DNA of 64,000 nt from Campylobacter sputorum subsp. sputorum (GTDB taxonomy: Bacteria > Campylobacterota > Campylobacteria > Campylobacterales > Campylobacteraceae), in assembly GCF_008245005.1 (NCBI RefSeq), contig NZ_CP043427.1, forward strand, positions 1 to 64,000, in the 5' to 3' direction. The position numbers were made by a program, and so were the translations under genes. Shown here piece after piece: positions 10,848-58,531 of the stretch (position 1 is its first letter; every line of letters starts with the position of its first letter). Below the pieces are notes generated by a model. The model was not told the origin of the DNA. It did not search any database and saw only the letters and a program-made list of their open reading frames with translations.

Positions 10848-11670
10848 TATCACTCTTTATATATGTTGTTTGCCCATCTAAAGTTAGTAAAAAATCGTAT
10901 AAATTATCTAATTCTTCGTCACTAAGATCACTTATTAGTTTGTCATTTTTTATACGCAAAACTTCTTTTAAATCACTTGTTCTTTTATCATAAAAATATG
11001 GTGAAGTTTTTGATATATTTCTAAGCATTGGAACTTTTTTAAATCCATCTGGGCTTTGAACTATCAAATTTCCGCCTAAATTTATACCATCATGACATGA
11101 AATACATCCAACTAAACTAAATATTTCATAACCTTTTTTTTCACTTGCACTGAAAATTTCACTACTTCCACTAATATAATTATCATATTTGCTATTTGGA
11201 GTTATTAAACTTTTTTCAAAATTTACAAGAGCATCAACTATGGTTTCATAGTCTAATTTTTGATAAATTTTATGAAATAGAGCGTTATATTTTGGATTGC
11301 TAAGTATTTTGTTAACTAAAATATCTTTTTGTGTATTTAACTCTTTTTTGCTAGTTAAAGATATTTCTACTTGTTTATATATATTATCAACTTTTCCATC
11401 TTTGAAAAACAGAAAGTTAAGTGCTGAGTTTAAAATGGTTGGAGTGTCCATTTTTGTTAAATCTGTATTTGTTCCGCTAAAATTCCAATATAAATTATGA
11501 CAAGTTTCGCAAGATATATTTTTATCCTTACTTAGCGTTTTATCAAAAAATAGCATTTTTCCAAGCTCAGCTTTTTGCCTATCATACTCTTGTGGTGTTA
11601 TTATATTTAAAGATGAGTTAGCAAAAATAAAATTTAAAAATATGGTTAAAAATAAAAAAAGTTTTGCCAC
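10837..11670 (-). CDS. Periplasmic di-haem cytochrome c, CCP/MauG-like
   Basis: A 277-residue protein with a signal peptide (MAKLFLFLTIFLNFIFA) and two CxxCH haem sites, CETCH near residue 55 and CISCH near residue 190, in the layout of di-haem cytochrome c peroxidases. MDTPTILNSALN and KVPMLRNISKTSPYFYD are typical of the family. It is shorter than classical CcpA (~330). It may act on hydrogen peroxide or be an electron-transfer or modification enzyme. Its gene overlaps the following EAL-domain sensor gene, raising the possibility that the sensor reports on periplasmic redox state. Confidence 0.82.
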   Translation of the reverse strand: MAKLFLFLTIFLNFIFANSSLNIITPQEYDRQKAELGKMLFFDKTLSKDKNISCETCHNLYWNFSGTNTDLTKMDTPTILNSALNFLFFKDGKVDNIYKQVEISLTSKKELNTQKDILVNKILSNPKYNALFHKIYQKLDYETIVDALVNFEKSLITPNSKYDNYISGSSEIFSASEKKGYEIFSLVGCISCHDGINLGGNLIVQSPDGFKKVPMLRNISKTSPYFYDKRTSDLKEVLRIKNDKLISDLSDEELDNLYDFLLTLDGQTTYIKSDNAE

Positions 11671-11687
11671 TACATCCCCTTTTTTGA

Positions 11688-12407
11688 TTAAAAAACTAAT
11701 AGCTTCATTTTAGAGATAATTGTTTCTATAATTATATCATCTTTATAAGTTTTTTGTAGATTTTGTTTTATTGTAAGTTCATCAATATTAATTTTATTTA
11801 TTTGCAAATGCCATAAAATATTTTCATAAGCATCATTAAAATCTCTTTTAACTTCTCTTTTTTCATCAAAAATGTGTGTTTTATAACTAATATTTTTATT
11901 TTTTAGATAAGCTTCAAGTTCATTTGCCGTTGTTGCGTAGTTAGGAATTTTTCTATCTTTTAAAAATGGTTCTATCAAAGATGAGTATCTTGGTATTTGC
12001 CAGTTTAGATATATTTTTTCTTTTCCTAGGCTTATAAATTTATCAAAATCTTTTTCATTTTTTAGAGATGGACTCATTGTCAAAAATGCTATATCAAATT
12101 TTTTATCATTATAAAACTCATCAAAAGGTAAATTTATGATTTTTATGTTTTTGATATTAAATTTATTTGCATCATCTTTAAGACATTTTAACATCTCATT
12201 AGAGCTATCAAGACAAGTTACAAATTTACAAATACCGCCTAAATACAGCGAATACACACCAGTTCCACATCCAATATCTAAAATATTTTTGTCGTTAAAA
12301 TTTATTTTAAACTCATCAAGTTTATCAAATAACACTTTTCCAAATTTGCTTAATTTTCCATCAAATCTATTATAAGTTTTTGCTTTTTTGTCCCATAAAT
12401 TTTGCAT
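11688..12407 (-). CDS. SAM-dependent class I methyltransferase
   Basis: A 239-residue protein with the class I AdoMet-binding motif ILDIGCGTGVYSLYL near residue 42, a motif II acidic residue in FVTCLDSSNEMLKCL, and the post-motif DIAFLTMSPSLKN. The substrate cannot be determined. The ATG directly abuts the recO stop (TAAATG), so it is part of the same minus-strand operon. Confidence 0.82.
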   Translation of the reverse strand: MQNLWDKKAKTYNRFDGKLSKFGKVLFDKLDEFKINFNDKNILDIGCGTGVYSLYLGGICKFVTCLDSSNEMLKCLKDDANKFNIKNIKIINLPFDEFYNDKKFDIAFLTMSPSLKNEKDFDKFISLGKEKIYLNWQIPRYSSLIEPFLKDRKIPNYATTANELEAYLKNKNISYKTHIFDEKREVKRDFNDAYENILWHLQINKINIDELTIKQNLQKTYKDDIIIETIISKMKLLVF

Positions 12408-13022
12408 TTATAATCCTTGTAAAATTATATCATAAAGTCTATTTATGTCATTATCATCTATAAATGATGAATTTTTTGTATCAAAGAGCCTTTTTATGTA
12501 ATTTGCATTAAAATCATCAGCGTGTGAGCACATTTTGTGAGATGGTAAAAATCCTCTAACCAAAGCCACATTTTCTTCTATTTTTTCATCACAAATAAAA
12601 CAAATCATATCATTATGTAACCTTCCTTCGTTAGCTAAAATTTCTAAATAAGCTTCTATTACTATGCGTTTTGGATTTGTTTTATCAAATTTAAGTGCCA
12701 TATTTTCTAATGTTTGAAAATAAATTTCATCTAAATCCTCAGTATCTTTTAAATGTTTGTAGAGTAAATTTATAAATTGCTGCCAGATTATGAGCCTATT
12801 TCTATCATAAAGCCATTTAAATCCAAGGTGCATAACGCTTCTAAGTTGCGGCAAAAATTTGATATTTGATATAAGTTCAAAATCTATTTTATATCCAAGC
12901 ATGATATTTGAGTGTCTTGCACCATAAAAACGATATGATTTAACTAGTAAGTCTTTGGTTAAAATATCAACTATCAAATCTTCATCGCGTAATTTTTGCG
13001 TATGAATTATGTAGCCTTGCAT
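12408..13022 (-). CDS. recO: Recombination mediator RecO
   Basis: RecO helps load RecA onto SSB-coated single strands. The 204-residue protein begins MQGYIIHTQKLRDEDLIVDILT, the RecO OB-fold start. It has a C-terminal CxxC-H-C-like segment (FICDEKIEENVALVRGFLP...HKMCSH) reminiscent of the RecO zinc region, with one CxxC cysteine pair reduced. The short length is usual for Campylobacter. It lies 4 bases after dusB and abuts the methyltransferase gene. Confidence 0.85.
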   Translation of the reverse strand: MQGYIIHTQKLRDEDLIVDILTKDLLVKSYRFYGARHSNIMLGYKIDFELISNIKFLPQLRSVMHLGFKWLYDRNRLIIWQQFINLLYKHLKDTEDLDEIYFQTLENMALKFDKTNPKRIVIEAYLEILANEGRLHNDMICFICDEKIEENVALVRGFLPSHKMCSHADDFNANYIKRLFDTKNSSFIDDNDINRLYDIILQGL

Positions 13023-13026
13023 GTTA

Positions 13027-13944
13027 TTAGAAAAATTCCATTATTAGTTTTTGCATATCTTTTGAATTATTAGTAAAATTTACATCATTTCTAAAATTTG
13101 ATGCACCATCTAATCCTTTTGAGTATTCGTGTAAATGTTTTCTAAAAAGCCCTACTCCACGCTCACTAAAGTGCTCTAACATCTGCTCAAAATGATATAA
13201 GATAATCTCTTTTTTAAGTTTATTGTCTATATTTTTTCCGGTTTTTATCTCGTGAAATATCCAAGGCTTTCCTATGCTTGCTCTTCCTATCATAAGTGCG
13301 TCGCATTGTGTGGTTTTTAGTATTTCATTAGCGTTATTTTCATCTATATTTCCGTTTGCAACTAGTGGTATTTTTATGCTATTTTTTGCTTCTTTTATGG
13401 CTTCATAATCAACTCTAGATGAAAATCCGCCAGTTTTTGTTCTACCATGCATTGTTATAAAATCAGCCCCTGCTTCCTCGCAAGCTTTTGCTATGATTAC
13501 TGGAATTTTCTCATCAAAACCGATTCTTACTTTTACACTTAGATATGTTTTGTTTGATAATTTTTTTATTGTTTGTATTAAGCTTTGCATTAAAGATATA
13601 TCTTTTAAAAGAGCAGAACCAGCATTTTGCTTTACAACTTTTGGTGCAGGACAACCGCAATTTAAATCAATTCCATCAATATCATCAAATTTATTTAAAA
13701 CACAAACAGCATTTTTTACACTATCAACATTTGATGCTTCTATTTGGACTATGAAAGGCTTTTCTAAATGCGAATGTGTCAGCATTTTAAGAGTTTTTTC
13801 ATTTTCATAAGCTAACGCATTTGCACTTATCATCTCACTAACTGTTACATCACACCCGAAACGTTTTACAACGTTTCTTAAAGGCGGATCTGAATAACCG
13901 GCAAGAGGAGCTAAGAAAAGCGGTAATTTATTAAAATCTATCAT
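13027..13944 (-). CDS. dusB: tRNA-dihydrouridine synthase (DusB-like)
   Basis: An FMN enzyme that reduces specific uridines in the tRNA D-loop. The 305-residue TIM barrel shows PLAGYSDPPLRNVVKRFG, the substrate-contact segment GIDLNCGCPAPKVVKQNAGS with the catalytic cysteine, VKVRIGF, ITMHGRTKTGGFS, PLVANGNI and DALMIGRASIGKPWIF. It overlaps the upstream membrane-protein gene by 14 bases, which implies coupling. Confidence 0.92.
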   Translation of the reverse strand: MIDFNKLPLFLAPLAGYSDPPLRNVVKRFGCDVTVSEMISANALAYENEKTLKMLTHSHLEKPFIVQIEASNVDSVKNAVCVLNKFDDIDGIDLNCGCPAPKVVKQNAGSALLKDISLMQSLIQTIKKLSNKTYLSVKVRIGFDEKIPVIIAKACEEAGADFITMHGRTKTGGFSSRVDYEAIKEAKNSIKIPLVANGNIDENNANEILKTTQCDALMIGRASIGKPWIFHEIKTGKNIDNKLKKEIILYHFEQMLEHFSERGVGLFRKHLHEYSKGLDGASNFRNDVNFTNNSKDMQKLIMEFF

Positions 13945-14950
13945 TAAAAAATAGTTTTAATGGTGCTTTTTGTCCATTATCTCTTAAAAAGAGCATAGTT
14001 TTAAACTCTAAGTAATCATCATCCTCTGAGCTTGATACAATTTCTCTAATCTCATCAAGCATTTGCAAGTCATATAATATATATAGATAAGCTTTTTGTG
14101 CTTTTTGATTATATGAAGATAGATTTTTAAATGTTTGCATGATAGCTTCTGGTGGTATTTTGTTTTGAAAAGTTTGTGCAATTATGATAAATCCGTTTTC
14201 ACTTAAATCACATTTTTTAAGTAAATTTAAAAGCTCACCTTGTTTTATTTCAAATTTATCATCTTTATTTATGTGTCTGTTTATCAAAATTAGAGTTTGT
14301 GCTTCTGTAAAGCTATCATTAAATTTCATAATATTTTCATAATTTCCAGTAGAAATAAGTTTTTCTTTTGCTTTTGTGATGAAAAGCGGATTTATATTTT
14401 CACTATTTGATTTTAAAATATCTAAATAATAATCTGCTAAAGTGGCTATTTTGTTTAATTCATTTTGTATATAAAGTGGATTTTCTTTTGGTAATTTGTA
14501 TTTTTTTATATCAACAGGAATACCATTTTTTGCGTCTTTTACTATATTGAAAATTTCTTTTAAATCCTCATTTTTAGAGTTTATATGATCTATATTTTTC
14601 CAAGGAGATAAAGATTTTAAAACCTCACTTGCATTATCAAAAGCTTTTGTTTTAAATTCCTTATTGCTATCAAATCCGAGCATAATTTCACTAATCATCT
14701 CATCATAAATTTTTGTATCTCGTTTTAATGCCCTATTTTGTAAGTAAATTTCAAAGTTTTGGTAAGCCATGTGAAATATTGATAAAAGTATAAAAAATGC
14801 TAAAGGCACGACAAACCATGTAGCTATTAATAAATTTATATTAAAGCCCATCAAGCTTAATGTGTATTCGCCGTTGTTAAGCGTATAAACTAATACAAAA
14901 ACAATGGTTGCGTATAAAATAGAATATATTATATATTTTCTCGCTTTCAT
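13931..14950 (-). CDS. Conserved two-span membrane protein of unknown function
   Basis: The 339-residue product has two strongly hydrophobic helices in the first ~65 residues (YIIYSILYATIVFVLVYTL and LLIATWFVVPLAFFILLSIF), then a long helical cytosolic domain without recognisable catalytic motifs. It sits between dksA and dusB, as does a similar membrane-protein gene in other Campylobacter genomes, so the position is conserved though the function is unknown. Spacing to dksA is 2 bases. Confidence 0.75.
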   Translation of the reverse strand: MKARKYIIYSILYATIVFVLVYTLNNGEYTLSLMGFNINLLIATWFVVPLAFFILLSIFHMAYQNFEIYLQNRALKRDTKIYDEMISEIMLGFDSNKEFKTKAFDNASEVLKSLSPWKNIDHINSKNEDLKEIFNIVKDAKNGIPVDIKKYKLPKENPLYIQNELNKIATLADYYLDILKSNSENINPLFITKAKEKLISTGNYENIMKFNDSFTEAQTLILINRHINKDDKFEIKQGELLNLLKKCDLSENGFIIIAQTFQNKIPPEAIMQTFKNLSSYNQKAQKAYLYILYDLQMLDEIREIVSSSEDDDYLEFKTMLFLRDNGQKAPLKLFFNDRF

Positions 14951-46207: not shown

Positions 46208-47953
46208 ATGCTTTCTTTTTATAAACTTTTTCAAAAAGTATTAATTGTTTTATCAATTGTTTCGGTTTTGGTGTTGGGCTATGTATTTTATAGTCTAGTT
46301 GTTGCTTCAAATGAACTTAAAGCTTCTGGCGATATGCAGCTTTTATCGTATAAATTAGCAGATGAGTTAAGGCAAAGTTCGGATGATTTAACAAGATTAG
46401 TAAGAACTTATGCTGTTACTGGCGATAAGTCATATAAAGATCAATATTTTGCAGTGCTTGATATAAGAAATGGTAAAAAACCAAGACCACAAGATTATCA
46501 CAGAGCATATTGGGATTTTGTAGCTGGTGGCAACTCTAAGCCTAGAGCGGATAGCGATTTAACAATCTCTTTAAATGATTTGATGAAGCAAAATGGTTTT
46601 ACTCCACAAGAATTTGAAAAACTAAAACAATCAAATGCAAAATCCGATAGTTTGGTAGTTTTAGAAACAAAAGCAATGAATGCCGCCGAAGGTCTTTTTG
46701 AAGACTCTAGTGGTAAATTTACCATTAAAGGCGAGCCTGATTATAAACTAGCATCAAATTTAGTAAATAGTAAAGATTATCATAATTTTAAAGCAGAAAT
46801 AATGAAGCCACTTGATGATTTTTTTGTGCTTATGGAAAATAGAACAAAAGATGAAGTTAGTAAAGCAAATTCTACTTTAAAAATGTTGCAAGCTATATTT
46901 GTCATCGTTTTAGTTATAACAGTTATTTGTATAGGACTTCTTGTTTTTGTTGGTTCAAAGATAACATATGGAATTTTAGGCGGTAAACCATCTGATCTTG
47001 AAAAAGCAGTTTCCGAACTTGCTAATGGAAATTTGGCCCAAGAAGTGAAAACAAAAAATCCAAATAGTGCTATGGGACTTTTAAAAACAGCTAATGAAAA
47101 TTTAAGAAAATTGATAGATGATGCAAAACATCTATCATCTGAAAACTCATCAATTTCAGAAGAGTTATCTTCAACATCGCTTCAAGCTGGTAAAAGGATA
47201 GAAGATTCTGCTTCTTTTGTGTCTCAAACTACTCAAAAAGTTGATAATATTCATAAAACTGTAACTGCTGGAATGCAAGATGCTAGAGGCGGAAAAGAAG
47301 ATTTAACAAAAGCAAATGAATATATAAATGAAACAAGTAGTTCTATTGTGGCATTAACTGAAAAAATTCAACAAAGTGCAAATACAGAAACAGAACTTGC
47401 GCAAAGAATGGATCAATTGTGTAAAGACGCAGAGCAAGTTAAAATCATTTTAACTACAATAAATGAAATAGCCGATCAGACAAATTTACTTGCATTAAAT
47501 GCAGCTATTGAGGCGGCTAGAGCAGGTGAACATGGTAGAGGATTTGCAGTTGTTGCTGATGAAGTTAGAAAACTTGCTGAAAAAACTCAAAGCAGTTTAA
47601 TAGAAATTAATGCCACAATAAATACCATTGTTCAGTCTATAACAGATTCAAGTGAAAAGATGAATGATAATGCAAAAAGTATGGATAATCTTACAAATAT
47701 CGCAAATCAAGCAAGAGAACAGATGGTAAGTATGAGTGAGGTAATGCAAAAGGCTATCAAAGTATCCGAAAAAACAGTTGCTAGTTATATATCTAATGGA
47801 GAAAATATCGAAGATATAACTAAAAGTATAGATAATATCAATGAGATATCAAACAAAAATGCTAGAAGTATAGAAGAGATAGCAAGCGCTTGCGAACACT
47901 TAAATAAAATGACAGAAACTTTAAATAACAAACTTTATGAATTTAGAACATGA
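46208..47953 (+). CDS. Methyl-accepting chemotaxis protein
   Basis: The 581-residue transducer has a membrane span near residues 10-30, a ~190-residue periplasmic helical sensor ([31 protein letters not shown]), a second span near 235-255, a HAMP segment ([21 protein letters not shown]) and the cytoplasmic signalling tip [20 protein letters not shown] with [19 protein letters not shown]. No C-terminal CheR/CheB tether is seen. The ligand is unknown. It lies immediately upstream of the porin/sulfotransferase locus but is separated by a hairpin. Confidence 0.92.
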
Positions 47954-48066: not shown

Positions 48067-48100
48067 TTTGTGAGAATTTTGTTAGATTTATTAATACAAT
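48067..48100 (+). promoter_or_regulatory. Porin promoter with tandem 11-bp direct repeats
   Basis: TTTGTGAGAAT (48067-48077) is immediately followed by TTTGTTAGATT (48078-48088), then 6 bases, then -10 TACAAT (48095-48100). The same arrangement occurs before the second and third sulfotransferase genes. The repeats occupy the -35 position, on one helical face, as expected for an OmpR-family activator site (inference). Confidence 0.65.
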
Positions 48101-48185
48101 ATAAATATTAAAACAACAAAATAAGTATATAGCATAAATAACTAAGATATAAATTTAATTAACATATTTTCATTTAAGGAAATAT

Positions 48186-49502
48186 ATGAAAAAACTAAGT
48201 TTAATAGTTGCTTTGATTGTTTGTGTGAACGCAAATGAAAATTTAAGCGATGCTTTGATTAACGGTAATTTTAGGGGCGAGATTAAGGCATGGTATTGGG
48301 ATAGAACCCAAGAAGCAAATCCATACAATAATGAAAATATCACAAATTTTGGTTTAGAACTTGGTTATAAAACAGGTTCTTTTTATGATTTTTATTTTGG
48401 TACTACTGCACAAATGTCTTTTGCGCCAATTAGCGATAAAAATGCAAAAGATATGTTTGATATCGAACAAAATACAAAAGGCGTTGTTTTTTCTGAGCTT
48501 TATCTTGGTTATAATCTTTCAAAAACTGATATAAAAATCGGTAGGCAATTTATAAATACGCCACTTGTTGCCGGTAATTACGCTAGGTTTTTCAAAGAGA
48601 GTTTTCAAGGTGCTACTATAAAAAGCAGTGATTTAAGCGATACTACTTTATTTGCCGGTTATATAGATAGATTTCAAGGTAGAACAAGCTCTGTTATGGG
48701 TGATAGTTCTGGAAGTGAGCCTATTTTTAGAAAAAGAGTTACAATAGGCGGTTTGATTGCTAAATCATATGAATTTGATGGTGCTGCATATGTTGGATTT
48801 TCAAATAAATCAATAGATAATGTAACACTAACTACCCAGTATGTATTTGCAAATAATGTTAAAATTCCACTTCCCAACATAGGCAATAAAAACGGCGATA
48901 TACATATGTATTTTGGTGAATCAAGCTATGTAATACCTTTTGATAATTTTGATTTCAAAGTTGATATTAGTATAGCTGGATCAGAAGTAGAAGGCAGCTT
49001 AAATGATGGAAATTTAGATGGAAAGATGTTTGGTGCAAAGGCTGGAATTTATAAATTAAAAGGATTTGATTTGTATTCTGCTTTTCATAGCGTCTTGACA
49101 GATAATGATTCTATGCTTTATGGTTTAGGACTTGGTGCAAATACTTACACGGCTGTATTGATAAGAGGACCATATGCTAGTTTTATTGCAGGAATGGATA
49201 CATATAAATTTGGTATAAATTATAATTTTGATAACATAGGTATAAATGGACTAAATGTAGATACTTCATATTTTTTTAGCAATCACGATGCACCAGTTAA
49301 AAATACTGGAATTATACCAGCAAATATGAAATGGGAATATAGTGGATATAATGTAACGATAAATTACAATCTTAAACAAGCAAAAGGCTTTGCTACTCAG
49401 GTAGTTTGGACATCAATCGAAGATGAAAAAACATTTGCTAATGGTAAAAAATTAGATACTGATTTTGACGAGCTTTGGTTAAAACTTAGTTATAAATTTT
49501 AA
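48186..49502 (+). CDS. OprD-type outer-membrane porin
   Basis: The 438-residue protein has a signal peptide (MKKLSLIVALIVCVNANE), then ALINGNFRGEIKAWYWDR, DIKIGRQFINTPLVAGNYARFF and a C-terminal beta-strand ending LWLKLSYKF with terminal Phe, the beta-barrel assembly signal. It belongs to the Campylobacter/OprD-like porins. Only 21 bases separate it from the first sulfotransferase gene, so they are co-transcribed; I infer it admits aryl sulfates or phenols. Confidence 0.85.
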   Translation: MKKLSLIVALIVCVNANENLSDALINGNFRGEIKAWYWDRTQEANPYNNENITNFGLELGYKTGSFYDFYFGTTAQMSFAPISDKNAKDMFDIEQNTKGVVFSELYLGYNLSKTDIKIGRQFINTPLVAGNYARFFKESFQGATIKSSDLSDTTLFAGYIDRFQGRTSSVMGDSSGSEPIFRKRVTIGGLIAKSYEFDGAAYVGFSNKSIDNVTLTTQYVFANNVKIPLPNIGNKNGDIHMYFGESSYVIPFDNFDFKVDISIAGSEVEGSLNDGNLDGKMFGAKAGIYKLKGFDLYSAFHSVLTDNDSMLYGLGLGANTYTAVLIRGPYASFIAGMDTYKFGINYNFDNIGINGLNVDTSYFFSNHDAPVKNTGIIPANMKWEYSGYNVTINYNLKQAKGFATQVVWTSIEDEKTFANGKKLDTDFDELWLKLSYKF

Positions 49503-49523
49503 ATAAATTTTTAAGGAGAAAAA

Positions 49524-51370
49524 ATGAAAAAAGTTTTTAGTTCAGCTATTGTTGCTGCAATGTTGTTAAGCGTAGGTGTAAATTCTGCTTTTGCTATGGG
49601 TGGACCAAGTGGAGCGAAAACAGACTATATAGTTGTAAATAAACTTGGAGAAGTTGTAGTAAATCCATATAAAATTGCTCCATTAACTGCAATTATAAAA
49701 GATGGAGGTTATACTTTAAAAGATGTTAGTGTTACTATAGTTCCAAAAAAGGGCGGACAAACTATAAGCTATAAGATAGCAGACAAAAAACTCAAACAAT
49801 ACGCAGGTATTCCGGTATTTGGTCTTTATGCTGATTATGTAAATAAAGTTGAGGTTAGCTATACAAAAATTTTTAAAGGTGAAAATATAAAAGAAACAGC
49901 TCAGTATGACATTTATGCTCCTGCTGTTTTTGTAGATCCTGATGGTACATATTTGCAAAAAGGTGGATTATTTAGTTCAGTTGATGTTAAAAAAGTTGAT
50001 GGAGAATTTAAAGATAGACTATACTTTTTTAATAATCTAGGAAATAAATCTACAAAATCAGCAAAAGCCATCTGGAATAACCCAACTGGTGGAGCATTAG
50101 AATGGAATCAAACTCCACTAAATTTTATTCTTGATACAAAAGGCGAAGTTAGATGGTATCTTCTTCCTATAAGAGATTTGTATGACATAGATTCAGCTTA
50201 TAAAGCTGGAATAATGATGGGCTTTAAACAAAATGATGATGGTGCTATGAGTTGGGGATTTGGTCAAAGATATGTTAAATATGATTTAATGGGAAGAGAG
50301 ATTTTTGATAGAAGACTTCCATCTTCATATGCCGATTTTTCACACTCGATGGATGATGCTCCAAATGGAAATTTCTTTTTAAGAGCTGCAAGTTTTAATG
50401 TAAAAAGACCAGATGGAAAAAATGTCCATACTGTTCGCGATGTTATCGTTGAAGTTGATGCAAATGGTAATGTTGTAGATGATTGGAGGCTTTATGAAAT
50501 TTTAGATCCATATAGAGATGATGTTTAAAAGTGCTAGATCAAGGTGCAGTTTGTCTAAATATCGATGCAAATTCAGCTGGAAAAACAATGAGTACAGAAG
50601 AGTTAGCAGAGCTTGATAAAAATGATCAATTTGGGGACATTGTAGGAAGTGGTGCTGGTAGAAACTGGGCTCATGTTAATAGTGTTGATTACGATCCAGA
50701 AGATGATAGTATTATAATTTCAAGTCGCCATCAAAACGCTATCATTAAAATAGGTAGAGATAAACAAGTAAAATGGATAATAGGAAATCCAGTTGGTTGG
50801 AAAGATAAATTTAAAGACAAACTTCTAACTCCAGTTGATAGCAAAGGTAAAAAAATATCTTGCGGTGAAGATGGTGCAAAATGCCCTGGATATGAAAATG
50901 AAAAAGGTGGATTTGACTATACTTGGACTCAACACACTGCATTTAAAATAGATGAGAAAAGTAAAGGTAATATCATCTATGTAAGTGCATTTGATAACGG
51001 CGATAGTCGTGGTATGGAGCAACCAGCACTTCCTAGTATGAAATATAGCCGTATGGTTGTCTATAAAATAGATCAAAAGAAAATGACTGTTGAGCAAGTT
51101 TGGGAATGGGGTAAACAAAGAGGGCACGATATTTATTCACCTGTTACATCATTAACAGAGTATCAAGCAGATAAAAACTCAATTGTTGGATATTTTGCAA
51201 CAAGTGGATTAAAAATTGATATTGCAAAAGGTTTGTTGCTTTCAAATCCACATCCTTCGATAGTTGAGTTTAAATGGGGTGCAAAAGAGCCATCAGTTGA
51301 AATTCAACTTCATGATACAATGGGATATCAAGCATTCCCAATTAGTGTAGAAAAAGCATTTAGTAAATAA
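49524..51370 (+). pseudogene. astA: Aryl-sulfate sulfotransferase, first copy, split by a one-base frameshift
   Basis: The first half (49524-50528) has a signal peptide (VFSSAIVAAMLLSVGVNSAFA) and runs to EILDPYRDDV before TAA. The second half (50531-51370) resumes in another frame at VLDQGAVCLNID. The paralogues read through here as NVLKVLDQG. The local sequence GATGTTTAAAAGTGC needs one extra T (GTT TTA AAA GTG) to match; with it, 616 codons would be open. The active residues are divided between halves: HS in DFSHSMDD; then NWAHVN, SSRHQ and the sulfated His in TWTQHTAF. Either a real inactivation or a base-call error. Confidence 0.88.
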
Positions 51371-51372
51371 AT

Positions 51373-51394
51373 TTAAGGTGGTTTTCCACCTTAA
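51373..51394 (+). terminator. Terminator after first astA
   Basis: Perfect 9-bp stem TTAAGGTGG (51373-51381) / CCACCTTAA (51386-51394) with TTTT loop, followed by ATATTTATCTTTT. Confidence 0.75.
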
Positions 51395-51474
51395 ATATTT
51401 ATCTTTTATATAATTTTTGTTTCCAAAATACTCATTTTCTTTACAAAATTTAAATATTTTTTTGATTATATATT

Positions 51475-51508
51475 TTTGTTAGATTTTTGTGAGATTTATA
51501 GATATAAT
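51475..51508 (+). promoter_or_regulatory. astA2 promoter with tandem 11-bp direct repeats
   Basis: TTTGTTAGATT (51475-51485) and TTTGTGAGATT (51486-51496), 6 bases, then -10 TATAAT (51503-51508). Spacing is identical to the porin promoter. Confidence 0.65.
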
Positions 51509-51545
51509 ATAAGGACATATAAATATTTTGTAAAGAGGAGAAAAA

Positions 51546-53375
51546 ATGAGAAAAATTTTAAGTTCAGCACTTGTTGCTGGTATGCTTCTTAGTGTTGGAG
51601 CTACTTCTGCTTTAGCAATTGGTGGTGCAAGTGGTCCAAAGACTGACTATATTGTTCAAGGAAAAATTGGCGAAGTAGTTGTAAATCCATATGATGTAGC
51701 ACCACTTACAGCTGTTATTAAAAATGGCGGATATAATCTAAAAGATGTAACTGTTAGAATTGTGCCTAAAAAAGGCGGTCAAGAGATAAAATATAAAGTT
51801 GCTCCAGGCGAACTTAATACTCATGGTGGAATACCTGTTTTTGGTCTTTATCCTGATTATGTAAATACAGTTGAAGTTGAATATACTAAAATTTATAAAG
51901 GCAAAGATGAAAAAATCAAAGAAGACTATAAAATTTACGCAGCTCCAGTTTTCTTAGATGCGTCTGGGTCACGCGGACAAAAAGGTGTGCTTTTTGATAA
52001 AATAGAGGTTGTAAAAGCACCAACTGCAAAATTTAAAGATAGACTTTACTTTGTAAATAACTTCCAACCAAAAACAGGAAAAGGTACAAAAGTAGTATGG
52101 AATAACCCTATGGGTGGTGCGTTAGAGTGGAACTATAATCCACAAATTTTTATACTTGATACAACTGGCGAAGTTAGATGGTATTTAGAACCAAGCAAAA
52201 TTTACAATCTTAAATCAGCATTTAATGCTGGTGTTATGATGGGCTTTAAACAAAATGATGATGGCGATATTACTTGGGGATATGGTCAAAGATATGCTAA
52301 ATATGACATCATGGGTAGAGAAATTTGGAACAGAGAACTTCCTGCTGGATATGTTGATTTCTCACACTCAATGGATGATAGTCCAAATGGTCACTACTTC
52401 TTAAGAGTTGGTAATGCAAACTTAAAAAGACTTGATGGCAAAAATGTAAGAACCGTTAGAGATGTTATTGTTGAAGTTGATGAAAATGGTCAAGTTGTAG
52501 ATGATTGGAGACTTTATGAAATTTTAGATCCATATAGAGATAATGTCCTAAAAGTGCTTGATCAAGGTGCAGTTTGCTTAAATATAGATGCAAAAGCTGG
52601 TGGACAAACTTTAAGCGAAGATGATTTAGCGGCTATGGATACAAACGATCAGTTTGGTGATATCGTAGGTAGCGGACCTGGTAGAAACTGGGCTCATGTT
52701 AACTCAGTTGATCACGACGCAGAAGATGATAGTATTATCATAAGTTCAAGACACCAAAATGCTATCATTAAAATCGGTAGAGATAAGAAAGTTAAGTGGA
52801 TTTTAGGTGCAAGTGAAGGTTGGAAAGATAAATTTAAAGATAAGCTTTTAACACCTGTTGATAGTAAAGGTAAAAAATTAAAATGTGATGAAAAAGGCGT
52901 TTGCGAAAATACAAATTTTGACTTTACATGGACTCAACACACTGCATTTAAAATAGATGAGAAAAGTAAAGGCAATATCATCTATGTAAGTGCATTTGAT
53001 AATGGCGATAGTCGTGGTATGGATCAGCCTGCAATACCAACAATGAAATATAGTCGTGCTGTAATTTACAAAATAGACCAAAAGAAAATGACTGTTGAGC
53101 AAGTTTGGGAATATGGAAAAGATAGAGGATTTGACTGGTATAGCTCAGTTACAAGTTTAGTTGAGTATCAACCAGATAAAAACTCAGTTATGACTTATTC
53201 AGCTGTTGCTGGTATGCAGTTTGATATAGCTACAGGAAACCCAACAGGACTTCCAAGCCCACATATCAACGAATTTGAATGGGGTGCAAAAGAGCCTAGC
53301 ATAGAGATTAAAATGACAAATGCTATGGGTTATCAAGCATGGCCATTTAGCGTAGAAAAAGCTTTAAGTAAATAA
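51546..53375 (+). CDS. astA: Aryl-sulfate sulfotransferase, second copy
   Basis: A periplasmic PAPS-independent enzyme that moves sulfate from one phenol ester to another phenol. The 609-residue protein has a signal peptide ending TSALA and a beta-propeller body. Active-site segments match the E. coli enzyme: VDFSHSMDDSPNG, GRNWAHVNSVD, IIISSRHQNAIIKIG, and FTWTQHTAF with the histidine that carries the sulfuryl group. The cysteine pair CDEKGVC, just before it, would form the structural disulfide. It is an intact copy with its own promoter. Confidence 0.93.
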   Translation: MRKILSSALVAGMLLSVGATSALAIGGASGPKTDYIVQGKIGEVVVNPYDVAPLTAVIKNGGYNLKDVTVRIVPKKGGQEIKYKVAPGELNTHGGIPVFGLYPDYVNTVEVEYTKIYKGKDEKIKEDYKIYAAPVFLDASGSRGQKGVLFDKIEVVKAPTAKFKDRLYFVNNFQPKTGKGTKVVWNNPMGGALEWNYNPQIFILDTTGEVRWYLEPSKIYNLKSAFNAGVMMGFKQNDDGDITWGYGQRYAKYDIMGREIWNRELPAGYVDFSHSMDDSPNGHYFLRVGNANLKRLDGKNVRTVRDVIVEVDENGQVVDDWRLYEILDPYRDNVLKVLDQGAVCLNIDAKAGGQTLSEDDLAAMDTNDQFGDIVGSGPGRNWAHVNSVDHDAEDDSIIISSRHQNAIIKIGRDKKVKWILGASEGWKDKFKDKLLTPVDSKGKKLKCDEKGVCENTNFDFTWTQHTAFKIDEKSKGNIIYVSAFDNGDSRGMDQPAIPTMKYSRAVIYKIDQKKMTVEQVWEYGKDRGFDWYSSVTSLVEYQPDKNSVMTYSAVAGMQFDIATGNPTGLPSPHINEFEWGAKEPSIEIKMTNAMGYQAWPFSVEKALSK

Positions 53376-53383
53376 GCTTTCAT

Positions 53384-53405
53384 CCCAAGGGAGCTCTCCC
53401 TTGGG
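53384..53405 (+). terminator. Terminator after second astA
   Basis: Arms CCCAAGGGAG (53384-53393) and CTCCCTTGGG (53396-53405). They are perfectly complementary; the tight centre would open to a GCTC-type loop. No immediate T-run, but T-rich sequence follows. Confidence 0.7.
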
Positions 53406-53474
53406 GCATATAAATTTATATATTTTTCATTTAATATCAGTTATCAAAATACGCATTATATTTACTTTAAGTTT

Positions 53475-53509
53475 AATATGAGAATTTTGTAAGAATTTGT
53501 TTATAGAAT
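53475..53509 (+). promoter_or_regulatory. astA3 promoter with tandem 11-bp direct repeats
   Basis: AATATGAGAAT (53475-53485, degenerate at its 5' end) and TTTGTAAGAAT (53486-53496), then 7 bases and -10 TAGAAT (53504-53509). Same layout as the porin and astA2 promoters, with a weaker first repeat. Confidence 0.55.
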
Positions 53510-53583
53510 AATAATTAACAAAATAAAATTATTTAAATTTAAAAAATAATTTTATTTTAAATTTTATTTTAAAAGGAGCAAAT

Positions 53584-55437
53584 ATGAAGAGAATTTTAAG
53601 TTCAGTTTTAGTTGCTGGAATGCTTTTAAGTGTTGGTGCTACGCAAGCTTTAGCAATCGGTGGTCCAAGTGGTCCAAAAATTGACTGGCAAGTTCAAGGA
53701 AAACTAGGAGCTGTTAAGCTAAACCCTTATGGTCTTGCACCACTAACAGCTATTATTATGAACAATGGCTATGTTTTAAGTGATGTTAGTGTTAAAATTT
53801 TACCTAAAAAAAATGGTCAAACTATCAGCTACAAAGTTGATAATCAAACCCTAAAAACTTATGGCGGAATCCCTATTTTTGGGCTTTATCCGGCATATAA
53901 AAACCAAGTTGAAGTAAAATACACTAAATCAGCTGTTGGCTTTAAAAATGAAACCATAACAGAAACTTACCAAATCACAACAGGTCCTGTTGGTTTAACT
54001 CCATCTGGACTTATGACACAAACTGGTATGCCATATGAAAGCGTAAAAGTTACAAAAGTTGATAAAGAGTTTGCCAATAGACTCTATCTTATCAATAACG
54101 CACCTGGGAAAATGCCAGGAAGAGGTTCACAAGCTGTTTGGAACAATCCATCTGGTGGAGCTTTAGAATGGAATGACTCATCAAATGCTTTTATCGTAGA
54201 TACTACAGGTGAGGTTAGATGGTATTTTGATTCTGATAAAATCCTAGATCCAGGCAATATTTATAGAACTGGTATCCAAATGGGATTTAGACAAGATGTG
54301 GATGGTGCTCTTGCGTGGGGCTTTGGTCAAAGATATGTTAAGTATGATTTAATGGGAAGAGAGATTTTTAATCGCCAACTTCCACTTGGATATAATGATT
54401 TTTCACACTCATTAAATAACGCTCAAAATGGAAACTATTTGCTTCGTGTTGGCTCATCAAACACAAAACGCCCTGATGGCAAAAATGTTAGAACAGTTAG
54501 AGATACTATCGTAGAAGTGGATAAAAACGGAAATGTAGTAGATGACTGGAGACTTTATGAAATTTTAGATCCATATAGAAACGATGTTATTTTATCGCTT
54601 GATCAAGGTGCGGTTTGCTTAAATATTGATGCTAGTAAAGCAGGACAAACAATTAGCGAAGAAGAGTTAGCTAAGCTTGATTCATCAGATGCTTTTGGCG
54701 ATATAGCAGGAACTGGAACAGGTAGAAACTGGGCTCATGTAAATTCAGTTGATTATGATCCAAATGACGATAGTATCGTAATTTCATCTCGTCATCAAAG
54801 TGCTATGATAAAAATTGGTCGCGATAAAAAAGTAAAATGGATAGCAGGAGCTCATAAAGGCTGGAGCGATAAATTTAAAGATAAACTACTTCAACCAGTT
54901 GATAGCAAAGGAAATAAAATAGTTTGCGAAGATGGCTATTCAAAATGTCCTGGATATTTAAATGAAAAAGGTGGCTTTGATTGGACTTGGACACAGCACA
55001 CCGCATTTATCATAGATAGTAAAACAAATAAAGATATTCTTTATTTAGCAGCTTTTGATAATGGCGATGGTAGAGGCTTAGAACAACCCGCACTTAGTAG
55101 TATGAAATATAGCCGAGCTGTTGTTTATAAAATAGATCAAAAAAATATGACAATAGAGCAAGTTTGGGAGTATGGAAAAGAGCGTGGCGGAGACTGGTTT
55201 AGTGCTGTTACAAGTTTAACTGAGTATCAAGGTGATAAAGACTCTATCCTTGTTTATTCAGCAACTGCTGGAATGCAATTTGACTTATCAAAAGGTGTGC
55301 CAGTTGGAGATCCTGCACCAGAACTTTTAGAGTTTAAATGGGGCTCAAATAAACCTAGTGTGCAAATGAGATTTACGGGTACAGGAATAGGTTATCAAGC
55401 AATGCCAATTAGCCTAGAAAAAGCTTTTAAAAGATAG
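53584..55437 (+). CDS. astA: Aryl-sulfate sulfotransferase, third copy
   Basis: The 617-residue protein has a signal peptide (ILSSVLVAGMLLSVGATQALA) and the same active-site set: NDFSHSLNNAQNG, GRNWAHVNSVD, IVISSRHQSAMIKIG and WTWTQHTAF. The disulfide pair is CEDGYSKC. It is the most diverged of the three, with a variable middle (GPVGLTPSGLMTQTGMPYE) that may alter acceptor choice. It is intact and has its own promoter and terminator. Confidence 0.93.
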   Translation: MKRILSSVLVAGMLLSVGATQALAIGGPSGPKIDWQVQGKLGAVKLNPYGLAPLTAIIMNNGYVLSDVSVKILPKKNGQTISYKVDNQTLKTYGGIPIFGLYPAYKNQVEVKYTKSAVGFKNETITETYQITTGPVGLTPSGLMTQTGMPYESVKVTKVDKEFANRLYLINNAPGKMPGRGSQAVWNNPSGGALEWNDSSNAFIVDTTGEVRWYFDSDKILDPGNIYRTGIQMGFRQDVDGALAWGFGQRYVKYDLMGREIFNRQLPLGYNDFSHSLNNAQNGNYLLRVGSSNTKRPDGKNVRTVRDTIVEVDKNGNVVDDWRLYEILDPYRNDVILSLDQGAVCLNIDASKAGQTISEEELAKLDSSDAFGDIAGTGTGRNWAHVNSVDYDPNDDSIVISSRHQSAMIKIGRDKKVKWIAGAHKGWSDKFKDKLLQPVDSKGNKIVCEDGYSKCPGYLNEKGGFDWTWTQHTAFIIDSKTNKDILYLAAFDNGDGRGLEQPALSSMKYSRAVVYKIDQKNMTIEQVWEYGKERGGDWFSAVTSLTEYQGDKDSILVYSATAGMQFDLSKGVPVGDPAPELLEFKWGSNKPSVQMRFTGTGIGYQAMPISLEKAFKR

Positions 55438-55440
55438 AAA

Positions 55441-55473
55441 TTTAGTGCCTTTTTGGCACTAAATTATTTTTTT
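55441..55473 (+). terminator. Terminator after third astA
   Basis: Perfect 9-bp stem TTTAGTGCC (55441-55449) / GGCACTAAA (55455-55463), 5-T loop, then TTATTTTTTT. Confidence 0.88.
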
Positions 55474-55620
55474 GTCTTTTGTAACAACTTTCTATTTATA
55501 TTATTGACTAACGCAGTTATAAATTTATTCAAAATTTAATATATTAGATTAAGTTTTATATATTTTAAAATTCCATTAACTATTTTAAAATTTTTGCTAC
55601 AATTTTTCAAGGAGCAAAGT

Positions 55621-57252
55621 TTGAAAAAAAAATACTCATCTATATTTAAAGATTTTGACAATATCAGAATTTATATAATACTCATTGTATTTTCTATACT
55701 TGTATGTGTTATAGGGATTATGAGCTATTATCAGATTAAAAATGAAGTTTCTAAAGTTGGTAGAGATTTTAGAACATCTATATCAAAAGAAATAGCCTTT
55801 AGCGCCAATGATTGGCTGGATTTTAGGATAAAATTTATAAATTTTTTGACAAATAAATATATTAATATCAATAGTGAAAATACTGCTCTTAATTATATAG
55901 ATTTTATGAAAGTAAATGGTATATTTGATCATTCTCAGATGTTTTTAAACTCAAAAGAGATGATTTTTGATGATGAGATTACAGAACTTGATGAAGATTT
56001 TGTAAAAGAGATTAAAACCAGATCTTGGTATAAAAACACGGTTGATGCAAATAAAACTACAATAAGCGTTTTTGATGCCCATCATGTATTAAAAAACAAA
56101 ACTATACATATTTGTTCGCCTATATATAGCAGTAAAGATGTATCTGTTTTTTGTGGCATTATAATTTCAAAAGATTTTTTTAAAAAGATTAGGCCAAAAA
56201 TACACTCATTTGTAGATAATATCTATCTTTTTGATCAAGATGGAGATGTTATTTCTAGTATAGATTATGTAGTAAATTCTAATGAACTTAAAAAATCTTT
56301 CTTAAATTTTATAAAAAATCCTAAAGGAAATATTTTTAAACATAACTCAAAACATATCGAGCTTATAAAATTAAAAAGTGATAATTTATACATAGGCGTT
56401 AGCATTGATGAAAAAATGATCGTTTTAAAGCCTTTGCAAATTTTGCTTAAAAACGGAGTTATTTTACTTATAGCTTTTATGTTTTTAATTGCAATTTCAA
56501 ATTTACTTCATACATTTATCCATGAAAAAATATTAAAAAAACAAAAAGAATATGAGTTTATTTTATCTCATGAGCTTAAAATGTCCGAAACAGGCGAGCT
56601 AATCTCAGTCATAGCACATCAGCTAAAACAGCCTATAAACTCATCAATGCTTATTTTAAGCAATGTATTAAATCTTAAAAAATCAGGAGAGCTTAGTGAT
56701 GACGAGCTTTATGAGAGTATAAATTTATGCATAAAATCAAATCAAATGATGGATAAGACAGTTGAGAGTTTTAGAAAATTTTATAAATTTGATGATGAGA
56801 TAAAAACATTTGATCTTCGCACTAGCATACTTAGTCTAAGCAATATTTTGCATACAACTTTTAGTAGATATAATATAAATTTAAAAATGGATAATTTTGA
56901 TATAGAGTTGCGAAATAATGAGAGTTTTTTGCAGCAAGTTTTACTTGTTTTACTTCAAAACTCAAAAGATGCATTAAAAACCAAAAAATCAGATAAGCTT
57001 ATAGAGATAAAAGCCAATGTTGTTTATAATAATGTTGAAATAATGATTTGTGATAATGGAAGCGGTGTAAAATACCCAAAAAATATATTTTTAAAATACA
57101 AAAAAAGCACTAAAAAAGATGGAAGTGGTATAGGTTTATATTTATCAAAACTTATAGCACAAAATAAACTCAGCGGTGATTTAGAGCTATTTAGCCCAAA
57201 AAATCCTACTATTTTTAAGCTTAGTATAAAACAAAATTTGGATATAGCATGA
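55621..57252 (+). CDS. Sensor histidine kinase with periplasmic sensor domain
   Basis: The 543-residue protein has a membrane span near residues 15-35, a ~230-residue periplasmic sensor of Cache-like outline (TRSWYKNTVDANKTTISVFD, KTIHICSPIYSSKDVSVFCGIII), and a second span near 280-300. The phospho-acceptor box is ISVIAHQLKQPINSSM, and the ATPase motifs are VLLQNSKDAL, ICDNGSGVKYP and GSGIGLYLSKLIA. The frame is open from 55594, but TTG at 55621 follows AAGGAGCAAAG and is preferred. TTTTTGCTACAAT upstream may be its promoter. Overlaps its response regulator by four bases. Confidence 0.88.
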   Translation: MKKKYSSIFKDFDNIRIYIILIVFSILVCVIGIMSYYQIKNEVSKVGRDFRTSISKEIAFSANDWLDFRIKFINFLTNKYININSENTALNYIDFMKVNGIFDHSQMFLNSKEMIFDDEITELDEDFVKEIKTRSWYKNTVDANKTTISVFDAHHVLKNKTIHICSPIYSSKDVSVFCGIIISKDFFKKIRPKIHSFVDNIYLFDQDGDVISSIDYVVNSNELKKSFLNFIKNPKGNIFKHNSKHIELIKLKSDNLYIGVSIDEKMIVLKPLQILLKNGVILLIAFMFLIAISNLLHTFIHEKILKKQKEYEFILSHELKMSETGELISVIAHQLKQPINSSMLILSNVLNLKKSGELSDDELYESINLCIKSNQMMDKTVESFRKFYKFDDEIKTFDLRTSILSLSNILHTTFSRYNINLKMDNFDIELRNNESFLQQVLLVLLQNSKDALKTKKSDKLIEIKANVVYNNVEIMICDNGSGVKYPKNIFLKYKKSTKKDGSGIGLYLSKLIAQNKLSGDLELFSPKNPTIFKLSIKQNLDIA

Positions 57253-57929
57253 ACAATAAATTTGATGTATTAAAAGATCGTAGTATTATGGTTGTAGATG
57301 ATGATGAACTTACAAGGATGGCTGTAAGTGGTGGGTTAAAAAGGTATTGTGAGAATTTTTATACGGCTAGTGATGGTTTGGATGGGCTTGAAAAATTTAA
57401 AAAACATAGAATTGATCTCATAATAACAGACATACATATGCCAAATTTTAATGGTCTTGATATGATGAATGAGATTTTAAAGCTAAAACCTGATCAAACT
57501 TTTATAGTAGTAACTTCATTTGATACTGATGAAAATTTATTTGAAAGCATGAAAAAGGGCGCCATATCTTTTATAAAAAAACCCATAATGATGGAAAATT
57601 TACAAAATGCTGTTGTAATGGCACTTTTTAAGATTGAAGACAAGGTTATAAAGCTAAATGATTGTATTATAGTGAATGTTACAAAGGAAAAAATTTATAA
57701 AAATGGCGAAGAAGTATATCTTTCAAAACTTGAAAATGCTATATTTTGGCTACTTTGTTTTAATATAGAAAATTTAGTTAGTTATGATATGATTGAAGAT
57801 TTTGCTTATGATGGCAATAGTGTAAAAATAGGCACAATCCATACTGTTATAATGCGTATAAAAAAGCAGTTAAATGATATAAATTTAAGCAATATTTCTG
57901 GTAGCGGGTATGTTCTTAAAAAAGCTTAA
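57249..57929 (+). CDS. OmpR-family response regulator
   Basis: The 226-residue protein has a receiver domain with acidic pocket VVDDDE, phosphorylation site LIITDIHMPNFNG (Asp near residue 59), the T/S switch VVTSFD and K in SFIKKPI. The OmpR-type winged helix ends SNISGSGYVLKKA. Partner of the kinase directly upstream. It is the best candidate to bind the tandem repeats before the porin and astA genes (inference from proximity and family: OmpR-type dimers bind direct repeats about one helical turn apart). Confidence 0.9.
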   Translation: MNNKFDVLKDRSIMVVDDDELTRMAVSGGLKRYCENFYTASDGLDGLEKFKKHRIDLIITDIHMPNFNGLDMMNEILKLKPDQTFIVVTSFDTDENLFESMKKGAISFIKKPIMMENLQNAVVMALFKIEDKVIKLNDCIIVNVTKEKIYKNGEEVYLSKLENAIFWLLCFNIENLVSYDMIEDFAYDGNSVKIGTIHTVIMRIKKQLNDINLSNISGSGYVLKKA

Positions 57930-58531
57930 ATTAAAATTTATAATAAAATGATTTTTCTCATCTAAATAAGAATAAAAAAGTTCAAATTTATACATATCTA
58001 AAATTCTTTTTACCAAATTTAAGCCTCTGCCATATCCTTTTGAATTTGCTTCTTGAGAGAAATTTTGGGTGTAAAAATTTAGCGTTTTTGATAGTTTTTC
58101 GCCACTTGTGATAACTTCTAAAGTGTTATAATAAATTTTAATCAAAATTTTACTTTGTTTTGAAAAATCATTATATTTTAGCGCATTTTCTAGTATATTT
58201 TTTATAGCTATACTTAGATAGTTTGCATCGCCTAGAACTTTAAAATTTTGCTTTATTTCTAGATTAAATTTATTTTCATCATTTATTAATTTTTCCATTC
58301 CTAAAAGCAAAAACTCAACTATAAACTTATTTTTTAATTCTATTTTTGTGGTTTGAGTTTAGCTTTTCAACACTTAAAAGCTTATTTGTTAAGCTATCCA
58401 TATGTTTGATAGCATTTTGTAAAATTTCTTTATATTTTGAGTTTTGTATAAAACTTAGTGTTATTAAAGACTTTGAAATCGGCGTTATAAGCTCGTGCTC
58501 ATGTATTTATTTTTCATTGATAATATCGTAA
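57885..58531 (-). pseudogene. Remnant of a second histidine kinase
   Basis: Read on the minus strand, a frame starting near 58531 (SYDIINEK) meets TAA at 58509-58507. It resumes with the His box HEHELITPISKSLITLSF and a helical HisKA segment to HKNRIKK, then stops at 58329-58327. Removing one A from the A6 tract at 58335-58330 restores reading into KFIVEFLLLGMEKL and a HATPase domain (SIAIKNILENALKY; KGYGRGLNLVKRIL). The sensor and N-terminus are gone. The type resembles ArsS-like kinases. The open part runs 45 bases into the response-regulator 3' end. Confidence 0.75.

Follow-up and report, generated by a model that had tools for sequence, protein, structure and literature searches.

What joins a porin gene, a row of sulfotransferase genes and a pair of signalling genes in Campylobacter sputorum subsp. 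sputorum is the question raised by a locus close to the start of its genome. The window, meaning the whole stretch of DNA analysed, comprises the first 64,000 nucleotides of contig NZ_CP043427.1 (assembly GCF_008245005.1), a genome represented by this single contig of 1,753,386 bp. Between positions 48186 and 57929, entirely on the + strand, it carries an OprD-family porin, three reading units of arylsulfate sulfotransferases (ASSTs), a sensor histidine kinase (HK) and a response regulator (RR). An original prediction held that these parts form one regulated system. That view gains support from a promoter repeat confined to the locus, the association of the HK/RR family with ASST genes across five genera, and porin-dsbA-dsbB-ASST operons divergent from HK-RR in other genomes. 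We consider it likely that the locus is a two-component-controlled ASST module whose periplasmic sensor switches on the porin and the ASST/Dsb module.

A direct repeat over the -35 region

A tandem repeat shared by three promoters had been proposed, and a genome-wide scan bore this out. An 18-base pattern built from the three window sites themselves, TRWKAGAWTTTTGTDAGA, matches at 48069, 51477 and 53477, and at up to one mismatch its three matches in the genome all lie at this locus (the reversed control pattern yields four). Inside the window, up to two mismatches give seven matches against 1.17 expected. Because the pattern was derived from window sites, further tests of the repeat were needed.

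Each element consists of two 11-bp direct repeats on the + strand. The first (48069..48090) lies 5' of the porin-ASST1 pair with a -10 hexamer, TACAAT, at 48095-48100; the second (51477..51498) precedes ASST2, with TATAAT at 51503-51508; and the third (53477..53498) precedes ASST3, with TAGAAT at 53504-53509. The second 11-bp repeat begins 15, 15 and 16 bp 5' of the respective -10 hexamers, and the element covers the -35 region. No good copy of the repeat occurs at the HK-RR promoter, which scores 4.5 against 23.7-26.5 at the three elements. The pho box, too, consists of 11-bp direct repeats over the -35 region. The module resembles the PhoB/OmpR regulons in this feature, in the predicted OmpR/PhoB fold of its regulator and in its activation-type architecture, and differs from them in repeat sequence, in the dCache sensor of its kinase and in its target genes.

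A looser pattern, GTDAGANNNNNGTDAGA, was scanned for exact matches in 11 genomes (G-numbers denote compared genomes and L-numbers compared loci, G000 being the genome that holds the window). It gave 23 matches, against 11 for the reversed pattern. Eight of the 23 lie upstream of an ASST, porin or dsbA gene: two are window sites and six are in other genomes, upstream of ASST in G001, G029 and G060 and of dsbA in G028, G044 and G029. Among the other 15, the six whose context was read (G028 79978; G044 85502, 1440265 and 1440276; G001 1247783 and 1564965) are apparent chance matches, situated in or beside coding sequence with no fitting -10 hexamer. In G029, the dsbA-dsbB site lies at 1,620,867 of a 1,655,616-base contig and the ASST array with its HK/RR pair at 387-396 kb, which separates them by 1.2 Mb along the contig, or about 0.42 Mb if it is circular. 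Such a distance points to a regulator acting in trans. Separately, three tandem 11-bp repeats, GTTAGATTTTA, occur at a non-ASST place in G044 (L134, G044:C1:1438000-1443000, position 2266), where no -10 hexamer was seen.

A lag test ignored the window letters altogether and asked for a direct repeat, at lags of 7-15, placed at a fixed distance from the -10 hexamer (threshold score of at least 7). Lag 11 was found in 30 of 82 target promoters. The eight other lags gave 4-16 of 82, and in the control promoters lag 11 was present in 29 of 253. The mean paired difference was 0.75 (standard error 0.18) in targets and 0.05 (standard error 0.10) in controls. Short and near-duplicate upstream regions and genes below 150 aa were dropped, and the test still includes promoterless genes internal to operons. 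Two earlier versions with other cores and thresholds also placed lag 11 at the top, with 12/126 against at most 4 and, at score 8, 15/97 against at most 8; control genes at that lag numbered 6/405 and 11/432.

These results bear on who reads the repeat. Control by Fur has been reported for the dsbA2-dsbB-astA genes of C. jejuni in excerpted text of PMC3167755, and a Fur- or CosR-like protein could likewise bind the 11-bp repeats here, leaving the HK-RR pair as just a neighbour. We judge this very unlikely. By eye, the letters of the repeat differ between lineages while its period and position, as in the lag test, stay, as expected of a regulator co-evolving with its sites. A period of 11 also suits OmpR/PhoB regulators, and this RR clade is itself linked to ASST genes, as described below.

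Linkage of the regulator to sulfotransferases across genomes

The original prediction had proposed a survey of synteny, and one was run over 150 genomes of the family Campylobacteraceae. Matches occurred for ASST in 91 genomes, for RR relatives in 71, for HK relatives in 72 and for relatives of the window porin in 26. Among RR relatives at 43% identity or more, a cut chosen after the list had been seen, at least 53 of 84 have a listed ASST no more than 8 kb away, in five genera; this is a lower bound with one RR row left out (G120, second half of a split gene), and many of the 84 places come from near-identical species. Twenty-five of the 84 are on contigs without a listed ASST (G056 has an unlisted ASST match), and six share a contig with one at 23-50 kb. 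Below the cut (31-39% identity), no listed ASST comes within 8 kb of any of the 18 RRs. No weight is given to a binomial test on 21 places picked by hand, as these had been chosen by contigs already in hand. Among the named loci, 31 have a close RR (L052-L082), and ASST accompanies it in 11 and dsbA in 16; ASST occurs in one of the 49 further loci scanned.

The wider neighbourhood adds a further component. Protein clustering, with one member of each cluster confirmed by Pfam, placed DsbA in 22 and DsbB in 25 of 40 fetched loci. Four loci (L027, L032, L034 and L036) carry OprD porin-dsbA-dsbB-ASST as one operon, with gaps of at most 14 bp, divergent from HK-RR, and L037 is similar but for one 131-bp gap. 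The order in G028 and G044 is HK-RR-dsbA-dsbB-TonB-type barrel-ASST, the barrel falling below the Pfam cut-off, and in G003 a porin lies 5' of HK-RR. Outside the family, a Halarcobacter metagenome-assembled genome (MAG; L058) has ASST-dsbA-dsbB-rhodanese-like-porin-HK-RR on one strand, thus holding all six module parts, and a Sulfurospirillum MAG (L055) has ASST-dsbA-dsbB-MCP-rhodanese-like-HK-RR, where MCP denotes a methyl-accepting chemotaxis protein. In a Helicobacter (L083), roughly 0.8 kb separates dsbA-dsbB-ASST from an HK/RR that is more distantly related. The small rhodanese-like proteins, called by eye, sit inside the ASST arrays at 7850-8278 of L055 and 6524-6949 of L058.

Known systems share a part of this arrangement. 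The astA(assT)-dsbL-dsbI genes of E. coli CFT073 and Salmonella and the dsbA2-dsbB-astA genes of C. jejuni resemble the module in a periplasmic ASST independent of 3'-phosphoadenosine-5'-phosphosulfate (PAPS), in its active-site histidine and in its cysteine pair. They also have a dedicated DsbA/DsbB partner, which is matched in relatives of the module, the window cluster itself being without dsbA-dsbB. Unlike the module, the gene sets described for them in excerpts of PMC4152235, PMC4460558 and PMC3167755 include no porin and no two-component system, and the Fur control of the C. jejuni genes differs from the HK-RR control predicted here. An excerpt of PMC4460558 also reports that in C. fetus and C. 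curvus astA lies close to dsbA2-dsbB, and the term 'two-component' is absent from its main text. Among the matches listed in open-licence PMC text, none described a two-component system linked to ASST or the combination of porin, ASST and two-component system. The original prediction likewise knew of no description of the combination. This genome is not alone in having it, and dsbA-dsbB is added in many relatives. The parts are of known kinds; what appears new, as far as the literature search reaches, is the regulated set as a whole and its distribution.

Several observations weigh against a two-component-controlled ASST module. The window consensus is derived from the very sites that it describes, and the 43% boundary was drawn post hoc. 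One of the 18 distant RRs sits 8,002 bp from an ASST, just past the 8-kb limit. In 15 of the 31 named close-RR loci, neither ASST nor dsbA lies in the fetched flank, some flanks being short. Some genomes, such as G069, G010, G019 and G025, have HK/RR without an ASST match; in genomes of genus g2, which we take to be the C. jejuni group, ASST is present and the RR search gave nothing at E 1e-30. A relative of the window porin adjoins ASST in a minority of the 26 genomes that have one. At the ASST and dsbA promoters of G065 and G040, whose RRs are the closest beyond the genus, no exact GTDAGANNNNNGTDAGA match was seen, with one G065 match unread. ASST1 is broken in the window, and the counterpart in G001 (L014, G001:C1:44000-57000) shows internal stops in its ASST, an HK split in two and an RR that stops early, and lacks a porin open reading frame (ORF).

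The last two points would also suit a decaying relic in this lineage, in which ASST2 and ASST3 persist and regulation is of little importance. An ASST copy at 1635-1636 kb and the HK of the third ASST locus of this genome are in pieces as well. We hold such decay to be unlikely, given that the window has open ASST2, ASST3, HK and RR genes with their key motifs kept, that relatives of ASST2 and ASST3 in other species are 88% and 90% identical, and that all three promoter elements are intact.

The sensor kinase and its response regulator

The HK gene occupies 55594..57252 (+), with TTG at 55621, just after AGGAG, as the more likely start. The kinase had been called Cache-like, and its predicted structure agrees: the model of the periplasmic sensor domain (window positions 55732-56463), at a predicted local distance difference test score (pLDDT) of 88, has a double Cache (dCache) fold, and its match to Pfam dCache_1 is 23.6 bits, below the cut-off of 45. 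The RR gene (57249..57929, +, 226 aa) overlaps the end of the HK gene, and both are open. Response_reg scores over its Pfam cut-off and Trans_reg_C reaches 21.3 bits against 26.2. The full-length predicted structure (pLDDT 92) best matches KdpE and other OmpR/PhoB regulators, so that the model identifies an OmpR/PhoB-type regulator with a receiver and a C-terminal winged helix, in line with the OmpR-type pair first proposed. Just past the RR, at 57885-58310 on the minus strand, lies a remnant of another histidine kinase (HATPase_c alone).

The putative pocket of the sensor separates the ASST-linked kinases from their sister kinases. ORFs of up to 490 aa were dropped from the comparison, and the folded sensor alignment took 32 of 34 HKs (L023 and L039 left out). 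Position 163 is His in all 34 HKs of the ASST-linked clade, whereas sister kinases have Asp in eight of nine and a gap in the ninth; position 115 is Gln in 32 of the 34 and Tyr in eight of the nine sister kinases. In excerpted text of PMC10104139, Arg126 and Asp173 (PctA/PctD numbering) are among the key ligand residues of amino-acid dCache domains. Our reading is that the sister-kinase Asp corresponds to Asp173, by local motif and not by superposition. On that reading, His in its place speaks against amino-acid binding and would suit an anionic ligand, and this apparently altered ligand motif would set the module HK apart from the dCache_1 amino-acid sensors C. jejuni Tlp3, PctA and Mlp37. 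Two periplasmic cysteines, C174 and C187 (numbered from 55594), are invariant in 34/34 HKs. Redox sensing through this pair, linked to Dsb, was rejected as a specific feature, since six of nine sister kinases without a link to ASST keep the pair as well; the cysteines more likely form a structural disulfide.

The sister HK/RR pairs of Campylobacterota belong to the same superfamily, with HK and RR adjacent and often beside periplasmic reductase-like genes. They differ in RRs that are 31-39% identical to the window RR, in having no listed ASST within 8 kb and in the pocket Asp noted above. Two small cytochrome-like proteins adjoin all six pairs inspected by eye (L140-L144 and L148), and a flavoprotein-like gene adjoins four (L140, L143, L144 and L148), the other two not having been displayed that far. 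The sister pairs are apparently a regulator family beside periplasmic reductases.

Such neighbours would fit a kinase that senses a sulfur oxyanion, the redox state or a respiratory substrate, with ASST belonging to a wider sulfur-related or anaerobic response and aryl sulfates not the signal. Several further observations lie on the same side. A PhsA-type thiosulfate reductase gene is located 3' of the second HK/RR pair of this genome, a TauE/SafE sulfite exporter adjoins the HK in L034 (by Pfam) and L032 (same cluster), and HK/RR occurs without ASST in some genomes. A Sulfurospirillum RR, more distant from the window RR than the sister pairs (26.5% identity), lies between reductive dehalogenase genes. 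We nevertheless find this account somewhat doubtful. The commonest neighbours seen in the nearest clade are ASST and dsbA-dsbB, the pocket residues are consistently unlike those of the sister clade, and phsA adjoins just one of the three HK/RR pairs of the genome.

The second pair belongs to L012 (G000:C1:466000-482000), where the phsA gene (1057.5 bits against a cut-off of 694) and genes for Fe-S and membrane subunits follow directly after HK/RR, at 10128-13948. Overall, this genome has ASST loci at 48-58 kb, 472-476 kb and 1633-1639 kb, and HK/RR relatives of their own accompany all three. The third (L013, G000:C1:1628000-1646000) holds one intact ASST, the copy in pieces, an HK fragment, an intact RR, dsbA and dsbB. 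Its dsbA, at 1,640 kb, is the only one of its type found in the genome and would lie about 0.16 Mb from the window locus if the chromosome is circular.

Transferases, porin and a proposed route of action

Three tandem ASSTs had been predicted; two are intact and the first is split. ASST2 (51546..53375, +, 609 aa) and ASST3 (53584..55437, +, 617 aa) cover positions 2-373 and 2-366 of the 374-position PF05935 profile, and both carry in addition the N-terminal Ig-like domain PF17425, each domain far over its cut-off. The catalytic residue is presumably the equivalent of H436 of E. coli AssT; H252, H356, N358 and R374, which we also take to be active-site residues, likewise sit in motifs of ASST2 and ASST3. 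These motifs, DFSH, NWAHVNS, SSRHQ and TQHTA, are present in both proteins together with the cysteine pair, as judged from ASST2 aligned to PDB 3elq. Activity has been demonstrated for a C. fetus ASST, according to excerpted text of PMC13426309.

ASST1 matches as two pieces only, in different frames: an N-terminal piece at 49524..50528 (+), closed by an in-frame TAA at 50526-50528, and a C-terminal piece at 50531..51370 (+), whose nearest tree row is the HK/RR-adjoining ASST of G065. The frame disruption near 50526 may be a sequencing error. A programmed frameshift is not favoured, since ASST2 and ASST3 are unbroken and the G001 copy contains several stops.

In a tree of 54 ASST rows, from which ORFs of up to 470 aa were left out and which ASST1 entered by its C-terminal piece alone, the three window ASSTs and the two other intact ASSTs of the genome fall in different clades, each with relatives elsewhere. 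The nearest relatives of ASST2 and ASST3 are 88% identical (in G040) and 90% identical (in G045). G040, C. portucalensis, has five tandem ASSTs followed by dsbB-dsbA (L021, G040:C34:61000-80000), and these group with the five kinds of the window genome, the ASST1 kind more loosely. The diversification of the transferases put forward initially fits these subtypes with close relatives in other species. Paralogues kept for so long suggest different substrates.

The porin, expected in the outer membrane 5' of the ASSTs, was confirmed as an OprD-family protein of 438 aa (48186..49502, +) by its PF03573 match (E 2.1e-17; 63.7 bits against a Pfam cut-off of 25). Its matches to solved OprD-type porins are partial, the best at E 1.8e-7. 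It is separated from ASST1 by 21 bp, and the two could share one promoter at 48069. Terminator-like hairpins follow ASST1 (51371..51396, +) and ASST3 (55439..55465, +), and an inverted repeat with strand not assigned follows ASST2 (53384..53405). With these structures between the genes, ASST2, ASST3 and HK-RR appear to be transcribed separately from one another.

The locus is flanked on one side by ribosomal/rpoA-type genes, recognised by eye, and an MCP gene, and on the other by an mfrA gene set. Syntenic stretches shared by the two genomes of the genus, that of the window and G001, are mostly 94-96% identical and 85-91% identical around ASST loci; average nucleotide identity between C. sputorum lineages is 94.5-95.5% in excerpted text of PMC12453555. 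The MCP (chemoreceptor) gene lies directly 5' of the porin, at 46208-47953, with a relative at the same place in G001. Together with the MCP inside the L055 ASST-HK-RR array, this raises the possibility that chemotaxis belongs to the theme.

From these parts, we infer the following course for the two-component-controlled ASST module. A small periplasmic ligand would bind the dCache domain of the HK; it is probably not an amino acid, and an anionic or sulfated aromatic compound is plausible, aryl sulfates among them. The kinase, as in its family, would phosphorylate the co-encoded OmpR/PhoB-type RR, which would bind head-to-tail on the two 11-bp repeats that replace the -35 box and activate the porin(-ASST1), ASST2 and ASST3 promoters. 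The ASSTs, as is known of the family, would shift sulfuryl groups between phenols in the periplasm independently of PAPS, after their disulfide had been formed by a DsbL/DsbI-like DsbA/DsbB pair, encoded here at the third ASST locus. The OprD-type porin would admit substrates, which may include the host or dietary aryl sulfates that the original prediction proposed. The ancestral unit probably comprised ASST, dsbA-dsbB, porin and HK-RR; in this lineage it would then have been duplicated, broken up and in part lost.

A more far-reaching reading is possible, and we offer it tentatively. The HK/RR clade may be a dedicated organosulfate (aryl sulfate) sensing system, in which the dCache domain was re-tooled by the invariant His from amino-acid to sulfate-ester recognition. 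It would then control a transferable porin-Dsb-ASST unit that occurs in several Campylobacterota families with sets of ASST subtypes for different substrates.

Sulfated phenols, including drugs, polyphenols and hormone conjugates, are common in animal hosts. The physiological role of bacterial PAPS-independent sulfotransferases is described as poorly understood, and their natural substrates as unidentified, in excerpted text of a 2026 review (PMC13426309). With the HK tied genetically to the ASSTs, the sensor gives direct access to this question: any compound bound by its periplasmic domain would be a strong candidate for a natural ASST substrate or product. The repeat in turn predicts which genes are targets, dsbA-dsbB among them, and this is testable in several species.

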